From an uncultured Olsenella sp. (lineage in GTDB: Bacteria; Actinomycetota; Coriobacteriia; Coriobacteriales; Atopobiaceae): a stretch of 34,260 bases of DNA. Shown in pieces: positions 31,757 to 34,260 of this stretch. How positions within the stretch are numbered: the first letter of the stretch is position 1; every line of letters starts with the position of its first letter. The stretch covers positions 1 through 34,260 of the forward strand of contig OMVJ01000023.1 in the NCBI GenBank assembly GCA_900314495.1, given 5' to 3'. Below the pieces are notes generated by a model, which did not search any database, was not told the origin of the DNA, and worked only from the letters and a program-made list of their open reading frames with translations. Position numbers and translations under genes: made by a program.

Positions 31757-32169
31757 ACGTCTCAATCGTGTCCTGTCCCTGGGCCATTGAGAAGCCATGC
31801 ACGTACCGGCCTATGTCCCGCCGGACTCCGCCCCAGCGCATGAAATATGCGACTAGCCGCGGTTCTGCAGGCTCGGCTCAGACGGGATTTGCATAACCTG
31901 CTATAACCGCAGCTCAATAGCAGTGTCGAGGAATGCGGCATTTCCCTGGTGGCCAAAGGGCACCTCCGGAGGAGCGTCTACCCGAATATTTTCTGCATCG
32001 GCGAGCCCAGTCGTATGCGCGGCCCAGCGGATCCAACTTGTCGTCCACGCCAGGCATCTCAATCGCCCGTCCCGCCGTGAGTTTCCGCGGCACCGGCACA
32101 CCTTGCGCCAGCGGGACGAGACAGAGAGCTCAGCAGCCTCGCCCCCGCGCCACGCCTCGCCCGCGAGAG
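31757..32169. other. Gene-poor stretch with one repeat copy
   Basis: No supported gene is seen in these 413 bases. They hold repeat copy 1 (31837-31900). A minus-strand frame of about 60 residues (32099 down to 31914) begins with GTG and lies directly downstream of the nuclease-like gene; it has a weak AAGGTG only 3 bases before its start and no family I recognise, so I do not call it a gene. Confidence 0.4.
31837..31900 (+). repeat. ~60 bp interspersed repeat, copy 1 (short reading frame MK..SRGS)
   Basis: This stretch matches 33763-33822 at about 85% of positions by eye, with one extra base in copy 2 near its end. The core is CTAGCCGCGGTTCTGCAGGC. An ATG at 31840 opens an 18-codon frame, MKYATSRGSAGSAQTGFA, ending in TAA (31894-31896). 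GCCGCGGTT can also pair with AACCGCAGC further on (31904-31912) at 8 of 9 positions. Whether it is a DNA element, an RNA or a tiny gene is unclear. Confidence 0.6.
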
Positions 32170-33384
32170 TTACTCTTCCCCGGGCCTGGAATCGCTCCAC
32201 TTGCTGATGTGCGGCAGGACGAGCCTGCGCAGATTGTTGTGGCAGATGCGGAAGTTCGTGCTCACCGGGGTCCACCTAACGTCCAGCTCACGGCACAGCT
32301 GTCTAACCACCAGCTCCAGGCTCTCGACCCTGTTGACCTGCCACCATCTGACGACGAAGACGTGGTTGCCCATAACGGTGTAGGAGTTGGACTTTTCTGC
32401 GTCTCGCTTCATATCGTAGTCGCTGGAGTGGTCCGCCTTGCCGTTGTACTCGACGCCGACGCGTTTGTCTGGCCAATATAAGTCGCAAAGGTAGTAGTCG
32501 CGGTCGGTCACGCTGCGCTTGTTGCGCTCAGGGTCGATGCGGTAGTTCATGACCGGTCGCGAGAGGCCATAGCCGCCGTATTTGCGCGGCAGGCAAAGCA
32601 GCAGGTAGAGCGAGGTTTCCATCCATGAGGCCGACCCGTCCACCAGGTACTTGGCCGCGCGCAGGGCTAGCTTGACGCCGTACGCGCCCTTGCATCCCTC
32701 CAGAAAACTTCCTATGCGCTTGGCGGTGGTCAGCGGGCGCATCTTGTAGCGCGGTTCTCCGTTCGAGCCATGGCAGTAGGTGCCGCAGAGCTCCATCCCG
32801 TACGCGACCAGCCGCGCAACCCGTGTGTCGCGGGTGCGCGCCAACGCCCGTTCCCCGGGCGTCTTAGCGCAATCCTCTCGCAGACTGGCTGGATTCTCGG
32901 GTTTTCTCTGCGCGCCCGGGGTCTCCGTGCGTTTCCTCGGCGTCGACGGCTCCGGGAGGTCATTCCCCTCGCCCTGCTCTTCTGTGCGGATTGCGCCGGC
33001 AGCCAGCAGAAAGCAGAACTCGGGCGTGGCGACGCCGACGTCTGGGCAAATCCGGCGGATCGCGCGCCGCGGAAGTACTCCGCTCCAAATGTGGCGCACG
33101 ATCGATTGCCGCTCCTTCTGCGTTCGCGAGGCCGGAACCATCACATGAATCGGCCGATGAAGCATGGCGATGCGGTCGCCCACCTGGGTGTCCATAATCT
33201 TGAGCAGCCGGAGCTGGCTCGCGGTCGCAACGCACTTACTCGGCACGTGGGTGGCCCGGCTGTACTCGCACCCAGCCGCTACGCATGGCTTCAGCTTGTC
33301 CAAGGGCACGTACTCGCCCTCGTCGCCTGGGTCATCGAGCCTCCAGTACTCGGTCGCGGAATCGCCGCAAATAATCAGATTCAT
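32170..33384 (-). CDS. Lone PD-(D/E)XK (DUF559/Vsr-like) nuclease-domain protein
   Basis: A 404-residue protein of no named function. Residues 1-135 have a pattern recalling AbiEi-like proteins (SATEYWR near the start, HVMVPASR, then RHIWSGVLPRRAIRRI and VATPEFCFLLAAGA). Residues about 136-185 are a polar linker. From residue 250 on, E256 in WMETSLYLLL, D301 in YYLCDLYWPDKRVGVEYNG and E312 give the acid order of DUF559/Vsr-type endonuclease folds; ADHSSDYDMKRDAEKSNSY and VFVVRW complete it. It may be a toxin, a defence protein or a DNA-repair nuclease; no partner gene is adjacent. ATG 33384 has AGAGG at 8 bases; the frame is open to 33417. It is flanked by the two copies of a short repeat and preceded by tandem palindromes, all signs of an accessory gene. 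Confidence 0.6.
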   Translation of the reverse strand: MNLIICGDSATEYWRLDDPGDEGEYVPLDKLKPCVAAGCEYSRATHVPSKCVATASQLRLLKIMDTQVGDRIAMLHRPIHVMVPASRTQKERQSIVRHIWSGVLPRRAIRRICPDVGVATPEFCFLLAAGAIRTEEQGEGNDLPEPSTPRKRTETPGAQRKPENPASLREDCAKTPGERALARTRDTRVARLVAYGMELCGTYCHGSNGEPRYKMRPLTTAKRIGSFLEGCKGAYGVKLALRAAKYLVDGSASWMETSLYLLLCLPRKYGGYGLSRPVMNYRIDPERNKRSVTDRDYYLCDLYWPDKRVGVEYNGKADHSSDYDMKRDAEKSNSYTVMGNHVFVVRWWQVNRVESLELVVRQLCRELDVRWTPVSTNFRICHNNLRRLVLPHISKWSDSRPGEE

Positions 33385-33408
33385 GCTCCCCGCCTCTCGC
33401 TGTTTGGC

Positions 33409-33435
33409 CGTGGTCACGCCAGCGCGTGGTCACGC
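33409..33435. promoter_or_regulatory. Tandem palindromic boxes upstream of the nuclease-like gene
   Basis: CGTGGTCACGC occurs at 33409-33419 and again at 33425-33435, a 16-base period. Each is a near palindrome (GTG-GT-CAC core; the second is fully GCGTG-GT-CACGC). They lie 25-51 bases before ATG 33384, and a TAGAAT -10-like box is found just upstream on the minus strand (33451-33456). Placement fits a repressor operator, possibly self-regulation. Confidence 0.45.
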
Positions 33436-33456: not shown

Positions 33457-33762
33457 TGCCGCTGGCCTCAGTCCTCGCCCGCGAGACGCTTGCACGAATC
33501 TTGCTGATAAATCACAGCAAACTGGTACGTCTACCTGCTGCGTTATGGACGCGGCCGACACGAGCTGGGGGAGCATGCGGTGCGGACATCAAAGATTTTC
33601 GCGAGAAAGACATGGCGTGTCTTGAATGCGATGCCTGGGGAATCGCCGAACGGTAAGTGTGACGACCAGCGGCGTGCCCGCGTGGCTGGGGCAGCCGAGC
33701 GGCTGGTCGGGTTGGCTTGCCCCTTCGGCCTGGCAGGGTGTGCATGTGGCGCTCGACACCAG
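33457..33762. other. Gene-free stretch
   Basis: About 300 bases with no supported gene. Short frames exist on both strands, as is usual in GC-rich DNA, but none has a ribosome-binding site with a recognisable product. I see no strong terminator or tRNA. Confidence 0.4.
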
Positions 33763-33822
33763 TGCATGAAAAACGCGCCTAGCCGCGGTTCTTCAGGCTC
33801 CGATCAGACGGGGGTTTGCATC
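33763..33822 (+). repeat. ~60 bp interspersed repeat, copy 2
   Basis: Matches copy 1 at 31837-31900, with 7 or so substitutions in 54 bases and one extra base near the end. ATG 33766 opens MKNAPSRGSSGSDQTG, the same reading as copy 1, but the inserted base changes the frame so it runs on to a TGA at 33880-33882. It lies 60 bases before the inverted repeat that introduces the IS110 leader. Confidence 0.6.
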
Positions 33823-33828
33823 ACATGC

Positions 33829-33847
33829 ACTGATAATTGTTATCAGT
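33829..33847. promoter_or_regulatory. Fur-box-like palindrome
   Basis: ACTGATAA (33829-33836) and TTATCAGT (33840-33847) are perfect inverted arms around TTG. The central 15 bases differ from the 7-1-7 Fur-box core TGATAATnATTATCA at one position. It is AT-rich inside a GC-rich region. No promoter or target gene is obvious next to it, so the regulator is a guess. Confidence 0.35.
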
Positions 33848-33884
33848 CGCACGGGGACGCAGAAGTGCCCCTGATACGATGATT

Positions 33885-33966
33885 GGCACGCGGCGCGGTG
33901 GCCCCAGTACGTGCTGGCGTCCCGGAGGGGGCTGCCTTCTTATAGACATGCCCCGCGCCGCGTGCC
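33885..33966. repeat. 14-bp perfect inverted repeat at the start of the IS110 leader
   Basis: GGCACGCGGCGCGG (33885-33898) is the exact reverse complement of 33953-33966, with a 54-base loop; GGC can extend the stem after a one-base bulge. Inside the loop CCAG/CTGG makes a small hairpin. It lies upstream of the IS110 transposase start by about 140 bases. It may be part of the element's left end, a target-site palindrome, or an RNA fold. Confidence 0.6.
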
Positions 33967-34107
33967 GGACCAGGGGGCGCCCGATGACCTAATAGGAGCT
34001 TGGGCGCAAGGCCGTGGACCCAGACAACCCACATGCTAGCGCTCCCGTCAGTGCAACGTCTCGCACGCCCCCCGGCCGCACGGAAACCACGGACGGAGGG
34101 AGAGGGC
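33951..34107 (+). ncRNA. Candidate IS110 bridge RNA region
   Basis: IS110-group elements encode a structured bridge RNA of roughly 150-200 bases in the noncoding end before the transposase. Here a -10-like TATAGA lies at 33941-33946, and downstream are stems GCGCCC/GGGCGC (33977-33982 with 34002-34007, loop TGACCTAATAGGAGC after extra pairs), GTGC/GCAC (34051-34054 with 34063-34066) and the long-range CCGTGG/CCACGG (34012-34017 with 34087-34092). Two looped stems would fit target- and donor-binding loops. Exact ends, fold and guide bases are not determined. Confidence 0.35.
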
Positions 34108-34260
34108 ATGTCATCCGGAGTCAGGCTCACGGACGAGGAGCTCGAGGGGAAGGTCGTCGCGGGCGTCGACACGCACGCGGACACGCACTGGCTGTGCGTG
34201 CTGGACGGGAGGGGCAGGGTGGCGCTGTCGCGCGAGTTCGACGCCACGGCGGAGGGCTGC
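34108..34260 (+). CDS. IS110-family transposase, N-terminus (partial)
   Basis: Fifty-one codons are present before the window ends. The motif AGVDTHADTHWLCVLD is the start of the RuvC-like DEDD domain of IS110 transposases; its first Asp (residue 21) is the first of the four catalytic acids. DATAEGC after it also fits the family (normally ATAEGY). ATG 34108 has GGAGG (34095-34099) at 8 bases. The DEDD domain and the C-terminal serine-bearing domain lie beyond the window, so intactness cannot be judged. Confidence 0.9.
   Translation, partial: MSSGVRLTDEELEGKVVAGVDTHADTHWLCVLDGRGRVALSREFDATAEGC

Follow-up and report, generated by a model that had tools for sequence, protein, structure and literature searches.

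A probable bridge RNA with target and donor guides in the left end of a Coriobacteriia IS110 element

The left end of an IS110 element at the edge of the window (the whole stretch of DNA analysed here, 34,260 bases, which is the complete contig G000:C32) almost certainly encodes a bridge RNA of about 234 nt, which would be transcribed from a promoter formed at the circle junction and would guide the recombinase to target and donor DNA. This guide RNA very probably steers where the element moves. The mechanism is already known from other bacteria, and the Coriobacteriia lineage is a well-supported new example of it. The RNA probably spans about 33846–34079 and is composed of a 5′ stem-loop, a target-binding loop and a donor-binding loop. 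The target-binding loop contains the left and right target guides (LTG and RTG) and the donor-binding loop contains the left and right donor guides (LDG and RDG). The features referred to below are as follows.

31834–31914, plus strand: uninterrupted paralog of the insertion site, reading ...TTTGCATAACCT-GC-TATAACC; its right half, TATAA, gives 5/5 pairing with the window RTG
33760–33828, no strand assigned: host DNA left of the element, containing the left target and target core, from the paralog comparison
33820–33826, within the left host flank: left target ATCACAT, from comparison of the flank with the LTG
33827–33828, within the left host flank: target core GC
33829–33836, plus strand: left-end tip and right donor ACTGATAA, predicted to be bound by the RDG, to which it is exactly complementary; copies diverge leftward of it
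33832–33837, plus strand: GATAAT, the −10 half of a promoter predicted to form where right end (RE) and left end (LE) meet in the circle; the −35 half TTGACA lies in the RE of relatives, 17–18 bp away
33846–33880, plus strand: predicted 5′ stem-loop, from the fold; its start (about 33844–33846) is approximate
33885–33966, plus strand: predicted target-binding loop (stem, two guide strands and apical stem-loop), from the consensus fold, the single fold and covariation; its stem is the 14-bp inverted repeat plus 33900–33902/33950–33952
33906–33914, plus strand: putative LTG AGUACGUGC, with core guide GC
33940–33946, plus strand: putative RTG UUAUA plus core guide GA, containing TATAGA; the aligned RTG column fits the right flank in relatives
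33947, plus strand: putative target-loop handshake base C, predicting G at donor position 7, from groups of relatives
33970–34076, plus strand: predicted donor-binding loop, from the consensus fold, the single fold and covariation
33992–33999, plus strand: putative LDG AUAGGAGC, identical to the right-end tip of relatives, ATAGGAGC
34048–34054, plus strand: putative RDG UCAGUGC, complementary to GC-ACTGA at 33827–33833 (7/7)
34055, plus strand: putative donor-loop handshake base A, pairing with T at target position 7 (33826)
34108–34260, plus strand: N-terminus of the IS110 transposase (DEDD domain), its open reading frame cut by the contig end

The left boundary of the element was fixed at 33829 by a second copy in the same genome (G000:C64, L002), which is 96% identical from window position 33827 to the contig end and loses similarity leftward of that point. 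The two contigs terminate at the identical base, within the transposase gene. The tip GCAC[T/C]GATAA, or near variants of it, is common to relatives in other genomes. The element thus includes the region that a sequence-only reading had put forward as a bridge RNA, and because it starts at 33829 the noncoding left end before the transposase ATG at 34108 is 279 bases long (33829–34107) instead of the about 220 first counted; bases 33829–33884, which that reading had not included, contain the 5′ stem-loop as well as the left donor end and the −10 box. Host DNA at 33760–33828 is 84% identical to the uninterrupted repeat at 31834–31901 of the same contig, so the element sits within a repeated sequence. 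On the minus strand at 32170–33417, adjoining the element, there is a 415-aa open reading frame whose C-terminal part resembles, by eye, a DUF559-type nuclease domain.

The right end of the window copy was not found by a pattern search of its own genome, and no transposase C-terminus was found in the assembly except that of another element; the window RTG and LDG were therefore tested through relatives and the paralogous site only. Insertion is precise and without duplication, the left dinucleotide GC belonging to the target and the right dinucleotide TC being carried by the element. In Adlercreutzia (L035/L137), an IS3 transposase gene is split by the element, and joining GGCTGAAGG-TC with GAGTTC restores its reading frame. 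For one insertion in Collinsella, the two flanks put together align with 15 orthologous empty sites; these read CTACCTGC/GGTTTT (ACCTGC/GGTTTT) or near variants, and the occupied site reads CTACCTGC/ACTGATAA ... ATAGGAGCGTC/GGTTTT. The IS3-gene insertion and the 15 empty sites ruled out a duplicated target or a CT core. Two irregular left ends were seen elsewhere: in L144 (G316:C43) the left junction is imprecise, two extra bases (AC) separating the left tip from the target core GC, and in L148 (G312:C77) the left end is tandemly duplicated, the tip and about 40 bp recurring beside the element.

The perfect 14-bp inverted repeat of the sequence-only reading is present at 33885–33898/33953–33966, and the longest inverted repeat in 200 dinucleotide shuffles of 33829–34107 was 12 bp. 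Folded alone, the window from 33846 to 34082 gives the 5′ stem-loop, the target loop and the donor loop. The folding energy is only mildly unusual compared with shuffles (z −1.75 and −2.0); the evidence for the RNA is comparative. An RNAalifold consensus of 13 Coriobacteriia left ends consists of a long stem enclosing a sizeable internal loop that is topped by an apical stem-loop, followed by a second similar unit, and this predicted fold is conserved with compensatory changes across relatives. In the 13-sequence alignment 92.9% of cells pair, compared with 37–43% in slid controls, both partners have changed in 23 of the 43 pairs, and covariation scores 0.419 (0.165 when shuffled, at most 0.105 when slid). 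The target-loop stem, the apical stem and the donor-loop stems fold again in a MAFFT alignment of 27 sequences, with double-sided changes in 20 of 28 pairs.

No relevant family of Rfam 15 matched the window, at either gathering or relaxed thresholds. A covariance model, R1, built from 13 Coriobacteriia copies, has a single match in the window and matches 52 of 75 IS110 loci at E<1e-3, upstream of the gene and on its strand. These loci, picked by protein similarity only (36–45% identity), come from Arthrobacter, Micromonospora, Pseudonocardia, Pseudoclavibacter, Acetobacter and others. R1 also has a match at E<=1e-4 in 45 of 396 Coriobacteriia genomes; no relative was present in the viral contigs searched. 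Another IS110 element of the same genome (G000:C11:47515-48363; L004, L008) encodes a 371-aa transposase and has no R1 match, its left end lying close to the contig end.

Across elements, the putative LTG matches the left target and the putative RTG complements the right target. Guide positions were read off fixed alignment columns; left tips were placed by hand from the tip motif and the RDG, and right junctions were located via AGGAGC. In 21 LTG groups, a mean of 5.12 of the 7 non-core bases match exactly the nine bases left of the tip, compared with 2.19 ± 0.31 when flanks were swapped between groups; none of 20,000 permutations was as high, although elements and groups are related and this and the later permutation counts are not exact probabilities. 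The flank match is complete in L162 (CAAGCGAAAGC, 11/11), in L153 (TTTTCCGTC, 9/9) and in L164 and L151 (TACACCAAC, 9/9). The RTG behaves similarly at the right junction (3.73/5, permuted 1.62 ± 0.39, 0/20,000 as high), with nine consecutive bases matched in L161. The window LTG AGUACGUGC fits its flank ATCACATGC imperfectly, with six exact matches, or 8/9 when G-U type pairs are included, and the window RTG UUAUA complements the TATAA that follows ACCTGC at the paralogous, uninterrupted site.

The two donor guides, in turn, match the joined ends of the element itself. Too conserved among relatives to covary, the LDG contrasts with the RDG, for which 9 of 20,000 permutations fitted the left tip as well and which covaries with the tip in relatives (for example, ACCGA with UCGGU and TTAGA with UCUAA). 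Next to the guides, pairing with donor position 7 is seen for the base that follows the RTG core in 10 of 11 RTG groups (10/20,000 permutations), and pairing with target position 7 for the base that follows the RDG core in 15 of 23 groups (4/20,000). Both putative handshake bases reproduce the handshake covariation published for IS110 elements (PMC11208158). The loops proposed in the sequence-only reading thus fit target and donor, the LTG and RTG fitting the insertion flanks and the LDG and RDG the element ends.

The core dinucleotides differ between donor and target. Nearly all elements have TC at the right junction, and most have GC or AC at the left one, giving a donor core of TC and target cores of GC, AC or TC, and the shared CT core of the IS621 type was not found. 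IS621 has CT in donor and target alike, but first bases other than its own are also usable (PMC11208158), and a shared CT was therefore not treated as defining for all IS110 elements. For the RDG, the core guide agrees with the target base, on the left, in 16 of 23 groups (2/20,000 permutations as high); for the RTG, it agrees with the donor base, on the right, in 10 of 11. Pseudoclavibacter copies show this pattern too. The guides may favour the exchanged state. A wider proposal, which we regard as possible but somewhat doubtful, is that a broad actinobacterial branch of IS110 recombines unequal cores (donor TC, target GC or AC, only C being shared), that the RTG and RDG core guides, being complementary to the incoming strand at its first core base, extend the published handshake by one base into the core and so favour products, and that an extra helix-turn-helix domain of the recombinase may sense or repress the junction promoter.

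Regarding expression, the joined RE–LE of relatives contains TTGAC[A/T/G]-17/18-GATAAT (or GAGAAT) in 18 of 19 junctions, the exception being L144, and the window contains the −10 half of this motif only. A junction promoter of this kind has been described for IS621 (PMC11208160, PMC11208158). No sigma-70-like promoter was found in 33750–34260, and a transcript starting near 33951, as previously suggested, is for that reason unlikely; the transcript would instead be expected from about 33844–33846, where the 5′ stem-loop begins. TATAGA, which had been taken for a promoter box, was ruled out as such, as it is part of the RTG, is not conserved and belongs to no promoter-like pair in the region. 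What stood of the earlier proposal was the bridge RNA itself, through the element boundaries, the covariation and the loop matches, whereas the exact RNA limits and the promoter did not. At 33829–33847, a palindrome at the left tip, ACTGATAA-TTG-TTATCAGT, overlaps the −10 box; it is complete in the two copies of this genome only, and is a possible operator for the helix-turn-helix domain.

The downstream gene is that of an IS110 transposase, as first read: the 51 aa from the ATG at 34108 match PF01548 (E=2e-4), and intact relatives carry PF01548 and PF02371. Searches of the PDB with phmmer and single proteins gave no match, whereas a profile of 25 relatives matched the transposases of IS621 (8wt6, E 7.8e-17) and ISCro4 (9t56, E 3.3e-16), and in the alignment of IS621 with relatives the catalytic D, E, D, D and S are aligned. 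A DEDD RuvC-like domain, a Tnp domain and the catalytic serine, which characterise IS110 recombinases, are found in the intact relatives, the window covering the N-terminal 51 aa only. At least 14 of the 25 relatives, including L012/L037, L034, L035 and those of the Arthrobacter type, have an extra C-terminal XRE-like helix-turn-helix (HTH_31).

These observations are consistent with the following sequence of events. Circularisation would join the right and left ends and create a sigma-70-like promoter (TTGACA, 17–18 bp, GATAAT), from which the bridge RNA, and probably the recombinase mRNA too, would be transcribed. The recombinase would then bind the bridge RNA, the donor loop (LDG at 33992–33999 and RDG at 34048–34054) would pair with the right and left ends now joined, and strands would be exchanged at the core by the recombinase. 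The window copy is presumably active in this way.

Strong hairpins lying directly upstream of a gene would also be expected of an ordinary structured 5′ leader with a regulatory role in transposase expression, through attenuation or translation control, with the guide matches as by-products, and a leader and a bridge RNA may overlap. A leader, however, would not fit the left and right host flanks of each particular element, nor the element's own ends, and the region before the transposase gene holds no terminator- or promoter-like site; we consider this explanation very unlikely. Inverted repeats bound by the transposase are frequent at IS ends, and the perfect 14-bp repeat could be read in that way, the conserved sequences being DNA-level sites for protein binding or recombination and the hairpins DNA cruciforms. 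Nevertheless, the pairs are maintained by compensatory changes that include G-U pairs, and it is the internal loops, not the stems, that match target and donor, which leaves this second explanation with an extremely small chance of being correct.

The RNA could also be a seekRNA of the IS1111 type (ISEc11 and others) instead of an IS110-type bridge RNA, given that IS1111 elements likewise have a DEDD transposase and choose their targets with a guide RNA (PMC11187229). In those elements, in contrast, the RNA usually lies downstream, the matches to the target strands are reversed and subterminal inverted repeats are present (PMC11187229), whereas the RNA described here lies upstream with the LTG before the RTG, and relatives have no subterminal inverted repeats in common between their left ends (ACTGATAA) and their right ends (ATAGGAGC). 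The probability of this assignment is negligible.

The IS110-type bridge RNA of IS621 from E. coli (PMC11208160, PMC11208158) is the closest in layout: both have the left-end location, the order of 5′ stem-loop, target loop and donor loop, the strand rules for LTG, RTG, LDG and RDG, handshake bases adjoining RTG and RDG, a circle-junction promoter and a homologous recombinase. It differs in length (177 nt, compared with about 234 nt here), in an RTG of four positions instead of seven (two core plus five; longer RTGs have been reported for other IS110 elements), in having a CT core on both sides instead of donor TC and target GC or AC, and with respect to the extra C-terminal helix-turn-helix domain frequent in the recombinases of the relatives. 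The seekRNA of ISEc21, also of the IS110 family, likewise comes from noncoding DNA upstream of the transposase gene, has segments matching the top and bottom target strands and uses a junction promoter, but has been described as a short RNA, about 74 nt long, in which the segments matching the target are contained (PMC11187229). In Collinsella (L171-L175, L182-L211), IS110 copies lie close to the apex of palindromic intergenic repeats that are roughly 170 bp long and have the conserved centre ACCTGCGGTTTT; when one such repeat was the query, 22 of 43 genomes had between 3 and 15 matches apiece (E<=1e-10). Repeated palindromic intergenic targets of these Collinsella copies, and probably of the window copy, resemble those of REP-inserting IS elements (PMC1525189), which involve other repeat families and were described before guide RNAs were known. 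The main texts of the literature found do not mention Coriobacteriia in the context of bridge RNAs; thousands of such RNAs were predicted by Durrant et al., possibly including these Coriobacteriia ones. An Eggerthella preprint that cites bridge recombinases (PMC13174815) was set aside, as it concerns different inverted repeats.

The comparative evidence widens the range of bridge RNAs with complete guide anatomy to include Coriobacteriia and other Actinomycetota, with a covariance model that recovers them where Rfam 15 does not and with natural pairs of insertions and empty sites. If the unequal-core rule holds, target and donor would need to share one base only, which suggests a simple source of direction. 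The lineage would also provide recombinases whose core preference is unlike that of IS621 and which are native to gut Collinsella, Adlercreutzia and Gordonibacter.
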